DNA of 64,000 nucleotides, taken from assembly GCA_009837205.1 (NCBI GenBank), contig VXTZ01000014.1:1-64000 (forward strand), written 5' to 3'. The stretch is from Candidatus Dadabacteria bacterium (GTDB lineage: Bacteria > Desulfobacterota_D > UBA1144 > Nemesobacterales > Nemesobacteraceae). Positions 27,457 to 40,411 of this stretch are shown here, in pieces; within the stretch, counting starts at the first letter, position 1, and every line of letters starts with the position of its first letter. The notes beneath the pieces are model-generated. The model had not been told where the DNA came from and did no database searches. It worked only from the letters and a program-made list of their open reading frames with translations. Made by a program: the position numbers and the translations under genes.

Positions 27457-27685
27457 AGATATTCCTCAGTACATTCAGGATTGGGGAAGATATGCTAGCA
27501 CAACAAATGGTTGGGCACAATAATAAGGGGAGACAAGATGCCTGATTACATCCCCTATATCGTCTTTTTCCTTCAAGAAAACGGTAACTGGCGAAGAACC
27601 TAATCTTTTAGAACTTATATATATAACTAGACAAAAGGAATTTGATTTGTGGCTGAGCTTACCGAAGGACTATTTCTTTCTTAAT

Positions 27686-30600
27686 TTAAAGGTTGTGAGT
27701 TTGGAATAGCCACGCATCAATAGTTTCAGTTACCTGTTTAAGACCAACGACATTTAAACTAAAAATTATTGGAAGAAGATTGTTGCGAAGGTAAAGAATT
27801 TCTTGGACTCCTCCCTCTTTCCTTGCGATATTTTCGAGAATTTTCTCAGTGATAATCTTTCTGCTTTCAGGCAGAAGCAGTTCTTGATACAGTAGGTTTA
27901 AAAACTGCGCCGCAAGCATGACCACTTGCGTTAAGTCAACAGGCTCTTCGGCAAGAAACGAAAGTACTTGCGAGAAAGGCCATTTGTCTATCTTCCACTC
28001 CGCAATAATTCCAGCTTGTCTGATAATATTCGGGTTCAGTCTGGTGAAAAAATATCCATACCCGAAAAGTTTTGCGCTTGCATCAAAGAACACCTCTGGT
28101 TCAACTATGCTCAATTCAACACATTTTTCTATGACGACCTGTGTCCATACACGCGATACGCCGTATTTACTTTTAGCTAGCTTGGCTTGCACGAGATCGT
28201 CGGTCCAAAGCACCGCTCCCGGCATACGGGCCAACAAGACCGCTTCCGCTCCATAGCGACCAAATACCTGAAGCAGTTCATCTCTTTCTTCCGGTTCTAG
28301 TTCCGCAAGAGCTATGCAAGATTCGACCCTGCAGGTGGTCTCCAGGGTATCAACAAGATTACGCAGTTTCTCAACAAAGAACTTTTTTTCCTCACTGCTG
28401 CTTTCCGAAAGTGCGTGTCCAGTATCTGTTTTTAGCAGCGTTGCTGATTCCCAGCTCCCAAGTGGTGCTTTGTTTGCTATCATACGACGGAGTTCGTTCA
28501 CGGTGTTTGTGGAAACCACAAAGTCAATTGACCAGTTTTTCAGGATGTCGAGTTCGTCAAGCAGAAGCAACGAAGAAATTGCACTCATGTCTAAAACGAC
28601 TGTACTGCACGACCCGAGTGTTTCTGCTGCACTGTTATACTCTTCCCTAGAACCTTCACAACACTTCACTAGACCACTCGGAGATGTAGCCAGATTCAGA
28701 ACTGCTTCGAACGCATTGCCGCCGAAATGTTCGCCGAAAACATGGAGCGGGAGCGGACCCTCTTTATATGCCTGTTCAAACTTGAGCATTTCTTCATGGA
28801 GCTTGTCTACAAGATCCAAGATCGTGCTAATGTCCAGCTCCGGTTCATCTGATCCAGTCTCCTTGGGCACCATCCTTATAAGCTGTACATCCGTCAATCC
28901 CGGAAATCTCACCTGCCTTTGCTCTATACAGTCCTGAAAACGATAGACATACTTGTTCTGGATTTTCTTGATTTCACCAATACGATCTTGGATGCCTTCG
29001 GCAAGGACGAAAGTGTCTCCCTCTTTTTTCCCCATCATAGCACTGCATATTTTGTTATCGGGTGAGAGTTCGCGTTCAGGGAACTGTGAACTTGAATCTG
29101 GAATATCTTTGACAACAATTTGGTGAGTGGTAGGGTTTCCCTGTTCAACGTAACATACAACGGCTCCAACTTCGACGCAGTCCGGATCTTCCAACTCCGG
29201 CTTCTTTTCATTGAGATATAGTGAAGCTCTTATGAACGCCATATGTGCATCAGGATCCTGAAAATTACGGCGAAGGACACGGTAGGCGTACTGGATTCCC
29301 AGCAGTTTTTGGTTTATCGCCTTTAGAACATGGACGACCATGAGAGCCGTTTGCGGACTTGCTTGATCGGCTTCCGGTATGCTTGAAGGATCATCATCTA
29401 TCAGTTCGGGTCGGTCAAGTTCCACTCCTAGGAAGGAGCGCCTGAGACTGAGTTCCTTGTCCTCTGGACACCGCTTGATTTCCTTGTCAAGAATTTCTAT
29501 CGCTTTCTCAATGTCGTATTCTATAAGGAAAGAGAACTCTGCTTCAAACAGAGTCTTGTTGACTACTCCTGCTTGGCGCAGTTCTTCGAAAATGCTGAGC
29601 ATAATGTCATGTCTTTCCAAGCGATTTGCGCATTCCAAAAGATATTTTGTGTCGGAACCATACGTAGTTGGATCGGCAACCCGCTTCCAGAGCGGGAGAG
29701 CATCTGAAAAACGCTTCAGCTTGAAAAGCAGTAACGCGAGCCGCCGAATTTCAAATACCGTCGTCGCATCATTCGTGAGCGCAAGCGCGTCATCCGCACA
29801 ATCTGAAGCTTTATCATTTTGTTCTTCCAGCAAATGGAGTTTTGCGGTAAGTGTCTTGAGATTGACATCCGATACACTTCCGGCAGGAATTTCATTCAGA
29901 AGTTTATAGCAGGCATCGAATTGTTTTTCCTTTGCAAACACCTGCAGTCCGAGTTCAATTGCATTTTCCCGAAAATCCTCCCGCAGTTTTGCCTTGCTTT
30001 TTGCTAACTGCGAGAACAGCTCTCCTGCGTCAGAATAATCGCCAGGGTCTCCGCGGTCTATGAGCATCATGCCAAAGATCATTTGACCTTGGTCCGACAA
30101 TACCTCCAACGGTATGCGACGCATCAAGTCAATTGCTTCGTCAAGTTTTCCCTCAATACGGAGCGACCCGCTATAGGCTTCAATGACTAAAGTATTCTGA
30201 GGGGCAATTCTCTTTGCCTCTTCCAAATCCTCACGGGCCTCCACATTTTTTCTAAGAGCCGTTCTCACTCTTTGTCTGGTAAGCAGAGCTTCTGCTTCTC
30301 CCGAAACAAAATGATTTTCTTTGGCAAACGCAATCGCTTTGCATAGGGCGTCTTCGGCTTCCAAGAGTTTTTCCTCATCACAGAAAAGGTCTTTGGTTCC
30401 ATATCGCTCAATGCTTCTTGAAATTTCCATCTGAAGGACGATTTGTCCCAGATACAACCAAGTTTCTGACGCGCGGCTCTCGGCGTCTACTGCGACTTTG
30501 ATAAATTCCTCGGCTTTCTGCAAGTCACCACAGTTCAGTGCTCTACGAGTCAAAGGAACCGCTACCTCATCTTTTTCAAGCAAATCTTTGGGTATGGAAT

Positions 30601-31531
30601 CTTTTAGTTGCTCAAGAGTTACCGAATCCGGCGCACTTTGAATAAAAATCAACAGCACACGTTCTGAGCGGGGAAATTCTTGCTTTAGTTCGCAGGCCAG
30701 TTCGTAAGCCCGTTCGCGCTGTCCAATCATAAGATAGCCTAGCGCTTCGTTGGTCCGGGCTACTTCGTCATCCGACTGGTACTCTTTTGCTTTCAGATAC
30801 AAATCGGCTGACCCCTTAGGGTTGTCGGTCGATACTTCAACATCACCGAGAGATGTAAGCAATCTGAACTTCTGCCGCGCTGTGAGTCTGTCCCAACTCC
30901 TCCTCCTTATTCGCCGGAGCAGAAATCTCGCTATTTGATAATCGTGTTTTTCCAGAGAACTTCGTGCATCATCAATCTCGGCATCAAGTTCATTCTGATT
31001 GTCCCTACCGAGGCTTTGCACGAGAGATCGCTGTATCTTAAGAGACTCGTCAAGTTTCGAGTCAATTTTTTGGAAATAAGAGGCCGACGCTCCGTCTTCG
31101 TACCAATCACGGACATCCGTATGCTTGTCCAGAAGCTGCTCGATACGACTCCAACCAAAGATCTCTACTTTAAACAAATTTTTTTTCTTATGTTCACGAT
31201 TTATCTTTACCAGAAAGTCCTGCACTTCACTGCCCACTTTATCCGTCGTCATGATTACGTACCGGTTAATGGGAAGTTTGAATTTCTTCGCTTTCTCGAT
31301 TTCGGTTTCTACTTCGGTTGGAGTAATCCTTTTTCCTTCTTCTCGCAGTTTGCACTGCGCAGCACGTAGTAGATATTCCCCGCTTAAGTCAAGGATATCC
31401 ACTCCTTTCTGGGCCTGTCCCCTGAGTGCGTACAGGTCTAATTCCGGGCATTCCCAATGAACTTTTAGCAGTTCTAAACAGAGAATTTCGAAATCTTCTG
31501 AGTTCTTCGGTTTTTTGTAACTCTTGCGCAT
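27686..31531 (-). CDS. large conflict-system protein: Mrr-like nuclease + TPR array + GreA/B C-terminal domain + PIN nuclease
   Basis: 1281 residues. 1-150: restriction-endonuclease fold, with GVDI (D44) and the QCK motif (Q59-C60-K61), as in Mrr-like PD-(D/E)xK enzymes. 170-770: many TPR-like helical repeats. About 785-875: a GreA/GreB C-terminal-like domain (EVGAVVCY..., MMGKKEGDTFVL, IGEIKKI). 970-1150: PIN-like RNase with acids D981 (VVLDMS), E1013 (NELRR) and D1111/D1112 (LWTDD). The TPR-GreAB-C-PIN order matches an architecture I recall as a predicted biological-conflict system; an N-terminal Mrr-like domain on top is striking. It probably senses a nucleic-acid or RNA-polymerase-linked signal and cuts DNA and RNA, an inference. 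It starts 71 bp after a restriction-modification gene and has its own promoter region. Confidence 0.85.
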   Translation of the reverse strand: MRKSYKKPKNSEDFEILCLELLKVHWECPELDLYALRGQAQKGVDILDLSGEYLLRAAQCKLREEGKRITPTEVETEIEKAKKFKLPINRYVIMTTDKVGSEVQDFLVKINREHKKKNLFKVEIFGWSRIEQLLDKHTDVRDWYEDGASASYFQKIDSKLDESLKIQRSLVQSLGRDNQNELDAEIDDARSSLEKHDYQIARFLLRRIRRRSWDRLTARQKFRLLTSLGDVEVSTDNPKGSADLYLKAKEYQSDDEVARTNEALGYLMIGQRERAYELACELKQEFPRSERVLLIFIQSAPDSVTLEQLKDSIPKDLLEKDEVAVPLTRRALNCGDLQKAEEFIKVAVDAESRASETWLYLGQIVLQMEISRSIERYGTKDLFCDEEKLLEAEDALCKAIAFAKENHFVSGEAEALLTRQRVRTALRKNVEAREDLEEAKRIAPQNTLVIEAYSGSLRIEGKLDEAIDLMRRIPLEVLSDQGQMIFGMMLIDRGDPGDYSDAGELFSQLAKSKAKLREDFRENAIELGLQVFAKEKQFDACYKLLNEIPAGSVSDVNLKTLTAKLHLLEEQNDKASDCADDALALTNDATTVFEIRRLALLLFKLKRFSDALPLWKRVADPTTYGSDTKYLLECANRLERHDIMLSIFEELRQAGVVNKTLFEAEFSFLIEYDIEKAIEILDKEIKRCPEDKELSLRRSFLGVELDRPELIDDDPSSIPEADQASPQTALMVVHVLKAINQKLLGIQYAYRVLRRNFQDPDAHMAFIRASLYLNEKKPELEDPDCVEVGAVVCYVEQGNPTTHQIVVKDIPDSSSQFPERELSPDNKICSAMMGKKEGDTFVLAEGIQDRIGEIKKIQNKYVYRFQDCIEQRQVRFPGLTDVQLIRMVPKETGSDEPELDISTILDLVDKLHEEMLKFEQAYKEGPLPLHVFGEHFGGNAFEAVLNLATSPSGLVKCCEGSREEYNSAAETLGSCSTVVLDMSAISSLLLLDELDILKNWSIDFVVSTNTVNELRRMIANKAPLGSWESATLLKTDTGHALSESSSEEKKFFVEKLRNLVDTLETTCRVESCIALAELEPEERDELLQVFGRYGAEAVLLARMPGAVLWTDDLVQAKLAKSKYGVSRVWTQVVIEKCVELSIVEPEVFFDASAKLFGYGYFFTRLNPNIIRQAGIIAEWKIDKWPFSQVLSFLAEEPVDLTQVVMLAAQFLNLLYQELLLPESRKIITEKILENIARKEGGVQEILYLRNNLLPIIFSLNVVGLKQVTETIDAWLFQTHNL

Positions 31532-31548
31532 GTTTTTCTGGTTGACGG

Positions 31549-31572
31549 TTAAGATAATTTAAATTAGCTAAA
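31549..31572. promoter_or_regulatory. imperfect palindrome (operator candidate) before the multi-domain nuclease gene
   Basis: A 24-bp palindrome with 10 of 12 matching pairs and the perfect core TAATTTAAATTA, 18 bp upstream of the ATG at 31531. A TTGACA box (31587-31592, minus strand) lies just upstream, so a repressor bound here would block the promoter. No regulator gene is adjacent. Confidence 0.45.
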
Positions 31573-31602
31573 CTCAGCCTTCATTTTGTCAACACCCGGT
31601 TT

Positions 31603-34476
31603 TTATCTTAACACCGCATAACGTTCTTCCTCTACTCTCTCCGCCTGCCCAAGCGCTTCTAGGCTTTCCAATAGCGGCTTCACACTCGTCACCCGTGCGC
31701 GTTTGAAGCAGCGGGCGATTTGTTCAGGGGTGGCTTCGCCCAATTCAGACAGTGCCTCGCGGACGGCAGCAATCTGATCGGGTAAGGCCTTGGGCCAAGG
31801 GAGCTTTTCCCCTTTGGCTTCTACACCTAGGTCCATCTCTATAGTCTTTCTTATCGCTGCTTGTTTGTCCTCGGGGGTTTGATATTCGGGGCGGAGCCAA
31901 CGGATTTGACCCGCTGTTTCTTCCTCGGCACGTTCCTTGTTAAGGGCCACAAGGCGAATCAATATCTCTTCATCACTCAGGCTCGCGGACCAACCATAAG
32001 CCTCTGCCACGGCGACGTCGATCTGGTCGTGCAAATCTTTGAGTATGCTGACCAAACCCTGATCATATATTTCGCGGTCTTTACCCTTGATTGTCTCACC
32101 AGCGCGGAGCTTTTCTAGTACGTTGTACACTTGGTTTAGGGTTAGCTTAGGATATGTTTCCTGCTGGCGTTTGCGGTGGGTATCCAGCTTCTCCCCCAGT
32201 TCACAGAGATGAGCTTTTTGGGTTTCGGTTTGGTCGGGAAAGGGGAAGGGATCAAAACAGCGGGATTTGTTGTAACGGGGGACAGCCCCCAAGCGTCCTC
32301 CTGCCGCGAATGACCAAACCATATGTACCCTACTCGAAAGCACAGCAAGATGGTTTCCATCGGCAAGAGCTATGGCAATCAACATGTGATCGGGTCGCGT
32401 ACCGACATCCAAATACTGGAACACTCGGTGCTTGGATGTCTCTATGGTCGCGACAAATCTTGGGAGTCCATGGAGAGCCGGTCGAATCTCGCTGCGAACC
32501 CGTCCAAATAGCCACCATTTTTCCCTAAACGCCTTTTCTTTCTTCACCGAGCGTTCGGGCCACACATTGTCAAACAGATACTGGTAAGCCTCTGGAAAGC
32601 GGTTCTTGACTTCATCCTCCGTCAGGTCACAGAAGTCCAGCACCCAATTGTCGCCGCGTATTTGGTTGAATTCTTGGCCCTTCACATATGGGCCGACGAA
32701 TTTGTCAAGATCCTTCCTTACACCGTAGCCTAGCTTAGTCAGTTGCTCCTTTGAGACGACAAATCCTTGCCCGGCCAACATCATTCCGTTTGAAGAAAGG
32801 CCAGAATTTGCCAAGAGCGGGCGAGCACCAACAACATCAATGCCAATTTTTAGATCTGAAAAGATCTTTCCAATTTGGCGATTGAAGGTCACAACCTGCC
32901 CATCCATTGCGCTGTTCACCTTGCTCTCGGTAGCTATGGTCAGCAGCAGCCCAGTTCGGTTACCCGCTGCCGCTACTGTAATTGCAATTCGAACCGCCGC
33001 ACTATGGAGTGTGTCCACCCAAGGGTGGTCTGGAATGGCGAAGAGGAGCGAGAGTGGCTTTTTTTGATCGTTCAGATGTGGCTCCAGCACGCGGCGGTTG
33101 AATGTCTGGCGTAAGCTGTTTGTGGTGATCAGGCCAAAGCGGCGCGTGCCAATACCCTTTTTAGGATTATAGGCACGGGTCATCAATGCCGCCTTTTCCC
33201 ACCAAAACATCACAAAGTCGGCGCTTTTTGGCATCTTGGGATAGGCTTTCCAAAGTGCTTCAACATAACCGTCCCCCAAAGCATCCCTAAGGATTGATCC
33301 TTTTCCAATGAAGGGCGGGTTACCTACAATGAAATCGGCCTCCGGCCATTTTGTCGGCCGCGGATTCGTATAGCTATAGACCTGTTCACGATATGACGGA
33401 TCAGGGACTTCTTTACCTGTTACTGGATGCGTGTAAGTCGTGATCTTGTCCCAAACTGTCACTGGCTGGCCGTTCTCGTCCAGAAGAGGTTTTCGTTCTT
33501 CCCATTCCAGCACGGCGTCGGCGTTCCGGATGTTCTTGAAGTCTCGCAGTACAGGTTCAGAGGGTGCGGCCTGCCCGTGGGTGCGGAAGTGCCATTGCAA
33601 ATAGCCAATCCAGAGGACCAATTCGGCTACATTTGCGGCCCATGGGTTTAGCTCGATACCCTGAAACTGGTGCGGGTCTACGGTGATGAAGCTGATCTGC
33701 GTCTCGCCCAGTTCGGTAAGCAGTGCTATCACTTCCCCCTCAAGCCGTTTCATCATCTCCAATGCGACATAAAGGAAGTTGCCCGAACCGCAAGCAGGAT
33801 CGAGCACACGAATTTCACAGAGCTTACGGCGGAAGTTACGAACCAAATCGCGAGCTTTTTCCTCTTTTCCATCGGCAGTTAGACGCTGCACAGCGGTCTG
33901 CACATCGCGCCAGTCTTCGCGAAGGGGCTCCATAATCGTCGGTGTGACCAACCGTTCGACATAAGCACGCGGAGTGTAATGGGCACCGAGCTTGCGGCGC
34001 TGACGCTTATCAAGTGCGCGCTCAAGGAGTGTGCCGAAGATGGCCGGTTCGACCTGTTTCCAGTCTGCCTCGGCAGCTTCAATCAGAAGGTTGAGTTGGA
34101 GTTCGTTGAGTGGCAACGCATCGGCATCCTTGAAGAGCCCACCGTTGAAGTGCATGAGGTCTTGCATTAGTACCTGAGAAAAGCCGCCGGTATTCATTAC
34201 CTCCCAGAGGCCCTTGAGCATGGGTTCAGCGTATTCGGTATGGCCACGAAGTTTGACGAGAAGTTCGGTGAAGCTGTTTTTAGGAATCAACTCTACATCT
34301 TCGGCAAACATGGAAAATAGACAGCGCATGAGGAAGCGGGCAACAGTTTCGCTGTCGTGGTCTTGATCTTCGAAGCTTTTACCTAGTTCGGCCAGATGAA
34401 CGGCAATGTCCCGCGTGACTTCGGCCGCTGTGAGTGCCGGGTCGAGGCTGAAAGGATCGGACCAGATGGTACGCAA
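31603..34476 (-). CDS. MmeI-like (type IIL/IIG) restriction-modification protein: methyltransferase and target-recognition part
   Basis: The major part of a single-chain restriction-modification enzyme. A helical spacer domain is followed by [14 protein letters not shown] and the methyltransferase motifs: [17 protein letters not shown], and [10 protein letters not shown], typical of N6-adenine methylation. The target-recognition region and a helical C-terminus with [13 protein letters not shown] follow. The indicated start is a TTG and is only where this frame can begin; the same frame is open further upstream (to about 34585) with native-looking sequence (YADFSRQGQGYNQFP). It is separated from the N-terminal nuclease part by a one-base frameshift. 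As it stands the full enzyme is not made unless the frameshift is bypassed. Confidence 0.85.
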
Positions 34477-35057
34477 AAGGTTGCGGGTTTCTTCGTTACG
34501 CAGGTCGTCGAGAAAGATTCGGTAGCTGTTGCCATCTGGAAACTGGTTGTAGCCCTGCCCCTGCCGCGAGAAATCAGCATAAAGTCTATCACATGTCCTA
34601 TGTCCACGATCAAGAGGAAGGGCGGCCAGCCGTCTTCCTTGGATACCGCGCGGGCATAATTATCAGCTTGGTTGCGGGCCTTGAGCATGGTGCCGTCCCA
34701 GCCGGCAGTACCCCGCACCCCGTGGCCGGTGCGCTTTTGCTTGCGGTCAGGAATCCCCTTGGTCAGATCGCCCTGGCGATTTTTCTTTTGGTCTACGCCC
34801 TGCTTTGTCTCCAGCACGAAATGACCGCTGCGATAGACGTCGATGAAGCCAGTGCTAGGCTTGTGGGTGTGGGTAAAGGTAACGGGTCGTTCAAATCGAT
34901 AATGGTCGTTTGCGTCATCGTCCGTTGCAGGGAATGGGCGATCCAGCCCAAGCATGTCGGTCAGCTCGATCACGAAAAGCTGGTAGTTGGCTTGCTCACT
35001 GCCACCGGATGGCTTCCAGCGTGCAATGAACTCGTTGATTTGTGTGTCAGTTGTCAT
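34383..35057 (-). CDS. MmeI-like restriction-modification protein: N-terminal nuclease part, frameshifted
   Basis: The first about 158 residues form the N-terminal nuclease domain of the same gene: TGFIDVYRSGHFVLETKQG carries the D...E-x-K catalytic pattern, and PPFLLIVDIGHVID leads to the linker. At 34581-34584 (a T-run on the coding strand) one base is missing; beyond it the frame is nonsense (FMLISRGRGRATTS), whereas the next frame resumes YADFSRQG and joins the methyltransferase part. The intact protein would be about 1150 residues, spanning 31603-35057. Loss of the nuclease with a silent methyltransferase, or a sequencing error, would both explain it. Confidence 0.8.
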   Translation of the reverse strand: MTTDTQINEFIARWKPSGGSEQANYQLFVIELTDMLGLDRPFPATDDDANDHYRFERPVTFTHTHKPSTGFIDVYRSGHFVLETKQGVDQKKNRQGDLTKGIPDRKQKRTGHGVRGTAGWDGTMLKARNQADNYARAVSKEDGWPPFLLIVDIGHVIDFMLISRGRGRATTSFQMATATESFSTTCVTKKPATFCVPSGPILSASTRHSQRPKSRGTLPFIWPN

Positions 35058-35257
35058 TTAGAAGTCGATTTTTCTAAGCAGGAAATTGTGTTGTTAAAAA
35101 AGGTTTAGAACATACTGTTTATTGCCATTATAACGAAAGAAATGGAGAACGCTAATTAAAGAAAAGGGGATTATATACAAGGTGAGTATCCATGGACTGA
35201 TAGAAGCCCCCTTTCCTTCTACTGAAGATGTCTTAAAAGGTCAAGGTATCTAATCGC

Positions 35258-39223: not shown

Positions 39224-40411
39224 ATGATAAGGACTTACAAGTGTCGTGCCAAGCTAACAAGGTCTGGGCATGAGGCGTTATCCCGGGTATTCGGGATGTG
39301 CACCACGCTCTACAATGCCTGCCTTGAGGAGCGTATTGACTGCTACAGGAAGACGGGCGAATTCCGTTCATATTACAACCAGTGCAAAGCACTGACCGAA
39401 GTGAGGGCGGATGATCCTGAGTATGCCAATATCAGCGTTCAGGTGTTCCGTGGGGTTGTGGGTCGCATAGACAAGGCGTACAAGTCCTTTTTCCGCAGGG
39501 TGAAGACCAAAGAGAAAGCTGGTTTCCCTCGATTTAAGAGTTCCAGGCGTTGGCGAACAATAGAGATAAACGACCAGTGCTGGAAGGTATTGAAGCGTGA
39601 AGGGCAGAAGCTGGTTCTCAAGATAAAGGGACTTCCCCACATCGAAGTAAAGACCGAGCGGGAACTACCCCCAAACACATTGCTGAAAGCGATACGAATT
39701 ACAAGAAAGCCCTCGCGGACGGAAGTCGCGTTATCGTATGAGCTACCGACTTCCGAGCTAAAACCAGTCGGAAATCCCGTTGGGATAGACATGGGGATAT
39801 CTAAGCGTCTTACCTTGAGTAATGGGGAAACTGTGGAGAAGAGGGAGATGGATAGGCGGAGGTTAATACGGTTGCAGCGTTCCGTATCTCGCAAGAAAAA
39901 AGGAAGTAATAATAGAAAGAAAACGGTTTCGTTGCTTGCTAAGGAATGGCAGAGACTTACGGACAAAGAGAGGAACTATCTCCACAGGCTAACTTCGGAA
40001 ATAGTAAGGATGTACGATTTTATAGCGGTAGAGAAGCTTGAAACGAAAAAGATGCTTGGCAACAGGCAGTTGGCAAAGAGCATATCTGAGCAAACTTGGG
40101 GGAAGTTCGCTGCGCTACTTAACGAGAAGGCTGAGAGTGCTGGCGTTACAGTAGTGGAAGTGGACCCCAAGGGAACTTCTCAGGAATGCTCAAGTTGCGG
40201 AGCAACAGTAGAGAAATCCCTGTCCGTCCGGACGCATAGGTGTAGTTGCGGATATGAAGCGGACAGGGATGTAAACGCAGCAATAAATATCCTTCATCGA
40301 GGCATCTCGATTGCGGGTGGGAAACTCAAGCAGTCCCGCATGGCCGGGAGGATGAGAGAGAAGCAAGACAGCGGTCTTGCTCGGCCAAGAACAGTAGAGG
40401 TAACTGTCTAG
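39224..40411 (+). CDS. tnpB: TnpB, RNA-guided nuclease of the IS200/IS605 group (no TnpA)
   Basis: 395 residues. N-terminal MIRTYKCRAK and helix-rich wedge domain; RuvC-like catalytic residues D189 (GIDMGIS), E270 (AVEKLETKK) and the DRDVNAA motif (D347/D349); zinc ribbon C322, C325, C340, C342. All active-site residues are kept, so it is probably a working nuclease guided by an RNA copied from its own 3' end. No tnpA is nearby. It sits between HAD hydrolase and acyl-CoA ligase, and its stop codon is only 2 bp before the ligase ATG, so its right end and guide-RNA region must overlap one of the two genes. Confidence 0.93.
   Translation: MIRTYKCRAKLTRSGHEALSRVFGMCTTLYNACLEERIDCYRKTGEFRSYYNQCKALTEVRADDPEYANISVQVFRGVVGRIDKAYKSFFRRVKTKEKAGFPRFKSSRRWRTIEINDQCWKVLKREGQKLVLKIKGLPHIEVKTERELPPNTLLKAIRITRKPSRTEVALSYELPTSELKPVGNPVGIDMGISKRLTLSNGETVEKREMDRRRLIRLQRSVSRKKKGSNNRKKTVSLLAKEWQRLTDKERNYLHRLTSEIVRMYDFIAVEKLETKKMLGNRQLAKSISEQTWGKFAALLNEKAESAGVTVVEVDPKGTSQECSSCGATVEKSLSVRTHRCSCGYEADRDVNAAINILHRGISIAGGKLKQSRMAGRMREKQDSGLARPRTVEVTV

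Follow-up and report, generated by a model that had tools for sequence, protein, structure and literature searches.

Organization of the locus

The window, a stretch of 64,000 nucleotides from Candidatus Dadabacteria contig VXTZ01000014.1, carries a gene for a 1281-residue protein (Table 1). An open-frame check found the minus strand of 27686-31531 to be a single uninterrupted ATG-started frame of 1281 codons, with stops throughout on the plus strand of the same interval. The source genome (1.69 Mb, 35 contigs, 97% complete) has one copy of the gene, and GC content (45.8% for the gene vs 47.3% for the window) does not separate the gene from the genome. The frame encodes one intact chain composed of an Mrr-like nuclease, a TPR array, a GreA/B C-terminal domain, a PIN nuclease and a helical tail. 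The union of four domain types in one chain had been proposed in an initial annotation of the sequence, and it is borne out by the intact frame, by Pfam and by profiles and AlphaFold/Foldseek; the nuclease, Gre and PIN domains are predictions backed by both profiles and structure models, and the TPR array is recognized by sequence models.

Table 1. Features of the locus (window positions; strand; basis).
Feature	Positions	Strand	Basis
Insertion of ~7.65 kb with both genes, between GST gene and leucyl aminopeptidase gene	27603..35257	.	Missing at the site in nine congeners
REase-TPR-GreA/B-C-PIN protein, 1281 aa	27686..31531	-	ATG start at 31531
Mrr-like restriction-endonuclease-fold domain, residues 1-145 (E15, D45, Q59, K61)	31097..31531	-	Mrr_cat_2, AlphaFold, Foldseek
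D45 codon, presumed nuclease metal ligand	31397..31399	-	D in 23/23 homologues
Q59-C60-K61 codons (QxK motif)	31349..31357	-	QCK in 23/23 homologues
TPR array, residues ~216-735 (limits approximate)	29327..30886	-	Sequence models
GreA/GreB C-terminal (FKBP-like) domain, residues 783-857	28961..29185	-	Pfam, profile, Foldseek
PIN nuclease domain PF20698, residues 979-1121 (D981, E1013, E1096, D1112)	28169..28597	-	Pfam, Foldseek, conserved acids
All-helical C-terminal tail, residues 1122-1281	27689..28168	-	AlphaFold
Type IIG (MmeI-like) restriction-methylation gene, ORFs 34383-35057 and 31603-34476	31603..35057	-	MmeI domains, PADLOC

Among the congeners that do not have the island, the flanks are joined or lie within ~125 bp of each other in eight of nine, and the GST and leucyl aminopeptidase genes are adjacent in seven. 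One congener (G004) has lost the GST gene as well as the island, and another (G007) carries ~1.2 kb of other sequence at the site. Direct repeats of at least 9 bp were not found at the island ends. The restriction-modification neighbour recognized in the initial annotation matches the PADLOC model REase_MTase_IIG (1328 bits, positions 187-1136 of 1136). Its coding frame shifts near 34600 and its N-terminal part lies in another frame, so the gene is either broken (a pseudogene) or misassembled. As support for a defence role, this frameshifted type IIG gene next door is circumstantial. An already-listed PADLOC system was considered for the 1281-residue protein and rejected, as only very weak PDC matches were obtained.

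Elsewhere in the window (39224-40411), between the genes for a HAD-like hydrolase and an AMP-binding enzyme, lies a gene for a TnpB-type protein (OrfB_IS605 and Cas12f1-like_TNB). Copies of this protein are numerous in G007 and other congeners; G000 has one close and two distant copies.

N-terminal nuclease domain

The N-terminal domain matches Mrr_cat_2 at residues 39-113 with an E-value of 0.0023, under the Pfam cut-off, when the full chain is searched. The isolated domain passes (22.6 bits, cut-off 22), and the same family is matched in 16 of 23 homologues. A search of the PDB with the single sequence gave chance matches only. Profiles of the REase region and of the PIN region likewise retrieved nothing meaningful from PDB sequences, and fold comparison was therefore needed for both regions. 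The AlphaFold model of residues 1-165, built from a 13-row alignment (pLDDT 83), has a REase-like fold with core strands at 46-48 and 55-61, and the putative D...QxK site (D45/Q59/K61) lies on core strands. In Foldseek it is matched best by MspJI (E 1e-4) and Avs4 (8dgf, TMq 0.56, rmsd 3.4), which agrees with the DNA-cutting domain suggested earlier for this region. Of the residues named in that suggestion, Q59 and K61 hold, but the aspartate had been placed at position 44, and the correct residue is D45, within G43-V44-D45.

The presence of the modification-dependent enzymes MspJI and AspBHI among the best structural matches raises the alternative that the N-terminal domain works as a type IV nuclease of the Mrr/MspJI kind whose substrate is modified phage DNA, the remainder of the chain being regulatory. 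However, the superposition on MspJI is poor (rmsd 5.6-6.7) beside that on Avs4, the search for a base-flipping or other DNA-recognition domain to go with the nuclease found none, and relatives carry PNPase or other domains at the N-terminus but retain the PIN core. Restriction of modified DNA is thus improbable as the main function.

TPR array and Gre-like domain

The TPR array precedes the predicted Gre domain; the model TPR_14 scores above the Pfam cut-off in the 1281-residue protein, as do several TPR models in its homologues. Pfam places GreA_GreB at residues 783-856 (E 3e-4) just under the cut-off (26.0 vs 26.9) and matches the same family in 22 of the 23 homologues. When a profile of the Gre region from 23 sequences was compared with 177,635 PDB sequences, the top two matches were GreB (2p4v, 1.9e-6) and GreA (1grj, 8.9e-6), with Gfh1 lower in the same list. 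An AlphaFold model of residues 760-1281 (pLDDT 79) was matched by Foldseek to GreA, the GreA/GreB-family structure 2pn0, Gfh1 (also in its RNA polymerase-bound form) and Rnk, with a probability of 1.00 for GreA, Gfh1 and Rnk. Across this model the probabilities are mostly near 1, but the E-values reach only 1e-3 to 1, since any one domain makes up little of the query. The likeness of this region to GreA/B is therefore upheld by profile and by structure, both of which return Gre factors first.

In Gre factors, an N-terminal coiled coil bears the catalytic acids. This coiled coil is absent here: TPR stands in its place, and Pfam gives no Gre N-terminal match. Since the coiled coil and its acids are missing, the 1281-residue protein is not a Gre factor. 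Docking on RNA polymerase through the C-terminal domain is established for Gre factors (PMC3132773, PMC7527559). In E. coli GreA, S121P abolishes polymerase binding whereas S124L keeps it (PMC7527559), and in M. tuberculosis Gre, S127E, which alters the serine of the NSP motif, abolishes it (PMC3132773). By profile alignment, the equivalent of GreA S121 is S823, a serine in 17 of 23 homologues. The equivalents of the NSP serine and proline are N826 and K827, where the homologues have H at the first position (19/23) and P at the second (11/23). With the Gre fold and one contact (S823) kept and the other contact (NSP) altered, which counts against it, the predicted docking of the Gre-like domain on RNA polymerase is plausible.

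The divergence of this polymerase-contact loop from that of true Gre factors, in a fold that is otherwise kept, would also suit a guard or decoy. The Gre-like domain would then mimic or watch the secondary channel without acting on transcription, and phage proteins would displace it, freeing both nucleases. TPR arrays commonly hold protein ligands, which counts for such a guard. The published prediction for this family, however, prefers action on the transcript (PMC8195603), and a pure guard or decoy seems rather unlikely.

PIN domain and conservation of the catalytic sites

The PIN domain has a Pfam match above the cut-off (PF20698, 'PIN-TPR-GreABC', residues 979-1121, E 6.5e-17, 62.5 bits, cut-off 27.8). 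The PIN nuclease proposed in the initial annotation is also recovered in structure, as the 760-1281 model matches the PIN proteins PAE2754, VapC and SMG6. All four acidic active-site residues are present (D981, E1013, E1096 and D1112). The earlier numbering of D981, E1013 and D1111/D1112 was right, with D1112 being the conserved member of the last pair, but E1096, the fourth acid of the quartet and D or E in all 23 homologues, had been missed. The tail that follows has a pLDDT of about 80-94 over most of its length and no family match.

Across the 23 homologues, which range down to ~20% identity, Q41, G43, D45, Q59, K61 and D981 are invariant, and E15, E77, E1013 and D1112 are each altered in one to three sequences. 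That homologues only ~20% identical always keep D45, Q59, K61 and D981 argues that the active sites are not a product of chance. Both putative catalytic sites, D45/Q59/K61 and D981/E1013/E1096/D1112, thus look intact.

Relatives and their genomic context

The PIN family occurs in four of 58 genomes of the phylum, all four in one genus, where homologues of the 1281-residue protein are 64 and 65% identical. The 64% homologue, in G010 (contig JAJDUA010000007.1; L011:2346-6194), sits alone exactly between dppC and dppD, which are separated by ~10 bp in congeners where both genes are seen, and the G013 copy lies beside dppC at a contig end. Because the insertion points differ (the island and dppC-dppD), the gene must have arrived in the genus, or changed place inside it, more than once. 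The G010 homologue has the orientation of the dpp operon and perhaps uses the operon promoter. The congeners G012 and G013 encode HNH-TPR-HTH-double PIN-permuted GreAB-C proteins of 2008 and 2020 aa (L010:2102-8125 and L009:1914-7973), each with a gene that looks HicB-like by eye ~400 bp downstream.

Outside the phylum, full-length homologues are found on alphaproteobacterial plasmids, several of them conjugative, as well as in other Alphaproteobacteria and a Streptomyces. One of the full-length plasmid proteins is WP_127581798.1 of Sinorhizobium meliloti. In a gammaproteobacterial metagenome-assembled genome, a homologue (53%, C-terminal half) is followed by genes for a C5 DNA methylase and an HhH-GPD glycosylase. 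Gabija lies near homologues in Sinorhizobium and Agrobacterium (annotated gene pairs) and in Qipengyuania and Rhizobium (PADLOC matches), so that recurrent co-location with Gabija is possible. Other neighbours of homologues include Shedu, SIR2, ThiF with Mov34, and a CBASS-type cyclase with a phospholipase. The partner genes differ between loci, and the gene is mostly stand-alone, being alone in G010 and having varying partners elsewhere. No relative of the protein was found among IMG/VR viral contigs, and the sole match among phage records is REase-only, in a bacterial-sized record filed among them.

Genes for GajA/GajB lie no more than a few kb from the homologue on each of the four plasmids L013, L014, L031 and L033. 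In Agrobacterium, the annotated homologue lacks 79 codons at its start (L014:7971-8208), and an upstream in-frame ATG brings in the nuclease motif.

The N-terminal effector is exchangeable. PNPase occupies this position in Nostoc (L038) and HNH does so in the double-PIN, permuted-Gre relatives; the N-termini of L036 and L037 have no family match. Conversely, enterobacterial and Janthinobacterium plasmids encode STAND NTPase regions fused to a like REase domain. On the plasmids L040 (5986-9054), L042 (5971-9090) and L039 (6001-7149), REase domains of this type are joined to STAND NTPase regions or belong to a short chain; the L042 protein is encoded near Hachiman HamA and the L039 protein near a Piwi/SIR2 pair.

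Gre and PIN domains are both found in normal RNA metabolism. The Pfam and Foldseek matches alone cannot tell defence from housekeeping, which leaves room for a housekeeping or stress factor in transcript quality control. Against such a role, the gene is absent from most congeners, has an empty site, is carried on plasmids, swaps its effector and has defence neighbours, and a housekeeping function is accordingly very improbable. The homologue neighbourhoods had been put forward in the initial annotation as a check on this point, and the contexts found are those of defence.

Proposed mechanism

The protein combines this domain make-up and intact-looking catalytic residues with mobility, a defence-island and plasmid context, and an exchangeable N-terminus. 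This member of the TPR-GreA/B-C-PIN family is probably an antiviral protein that is encoded by one gene, spreads horizontally and has an Mrr-type DNase as its N-terminal effector; it would dock on or guard the polymerase, and firing of the PIN domain and the nuclease would lead to cell death. The way in which such a protein would act, including docking or guarding, its trigger and targets, the order of the two cuts, autoinhibition by the TPR array and a suicidal outcome, is what we infer as follows. The Gre-like domain would bind RNA polymerase at its secondary channel, docking on the beta-prime rim helices, or would guard that site. The TPR array may keep the protein inactive and receive the infection signal. 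Once the protein is activated, the PIN domain would cut RNA near the polymerase, and the N-terminal nuclease, perhaps once clustered, would degrade DNA, leaving the infected cell dead before phage release. The Avs1-4 nucleases cut the DNA of phage and host alike and are lethal to the cell (PMC12931631), and by analogy with this action and from the fold match to Avs4, DNA destruction and cell death may also be expected of the REase domain here.

A more specific version, in which phage takeover of the polymerase itself triggers immunity at the secondary channel, with PIN cutting the transcript and Mrr cutting the DNA from one polypeptide, can be put forward only tentatively. If true, the transcription complex would join the list of things that bacterial immunity monitors. 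Both nuclease centres look intact, the empty-site comparison is clean, and the close relatives include full-length plasmid homologues in cultured rhizobia, so that phage sensing through RNA polymerase becomes directly testable.

Comparison with known systems

The initial annotation referred to a catalogue of TPR-GreAB-C-PIN proteins as predicted conflict systems, and this catalogue exists. Kaur, Iyer, Burroughs and Aravind (eLife 2021; PMC8195603) described a constant but fast-evolving core of TPR, GreA/B-C and PIN, to which 13 exchangeable N-terminal effectors, REase among them, are attached, mostly in stand-alone genes. They predicted action at the beta-prime coiled coil, cleavage of the extruded transcript by the PIN domain, and suicide through the N-terminal effector. 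The architecture is therefore not new, and the two-warhead idea was already proposed in 2021 (PMC8195603). In the literature searched, which covered few subscription papers or preprints, no experimental test of the family was found, and searches by name returned nothing beyond the 2021 description.

The 1281-residue protein agrees with this family at every testable sequence-level criterion and is thus a member of it. It shares with the described system (PMC8195603; PF20698) the domain order, a listed REase effector and a single gene without conserved partners, and differs in host lineage and in sharing an island with a type IIG gene. The HNH-TPR-HTH-double PIN-permuted GreAB-C proteins of G012 and G013 (PF24407, PF24388) have the PF20698 PIN, a Gre-C relative and an N-terminal DNase in common with it, but they are about 2010-2020 aa long, belong to a family named for two PINs, have a permuted Gre and carry HNH in place of REase. 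Avs4 (AVAST type 4) likewise couples a nuclease domain with the REase fold to a large sensor chain (8dgf); however, Avs4 has a STAND NTPase and senses the phage portal, whereas the protein described here has no NTPase and has Gre and PIN instead. GreA/GreB and Gfh1 share the C-terminal globular domain, but the 1281-residue protein does not have their N-terminal coiled coil and catalytic acids or keep the NSP contact motif. Dadabacteria are unmentioned in the main text of the 2021 description (PMC8195603), and what is new here is a Dadabacteria member of the TPR-GreA/B-C-PIN family, located in an island with a type IIG gene.
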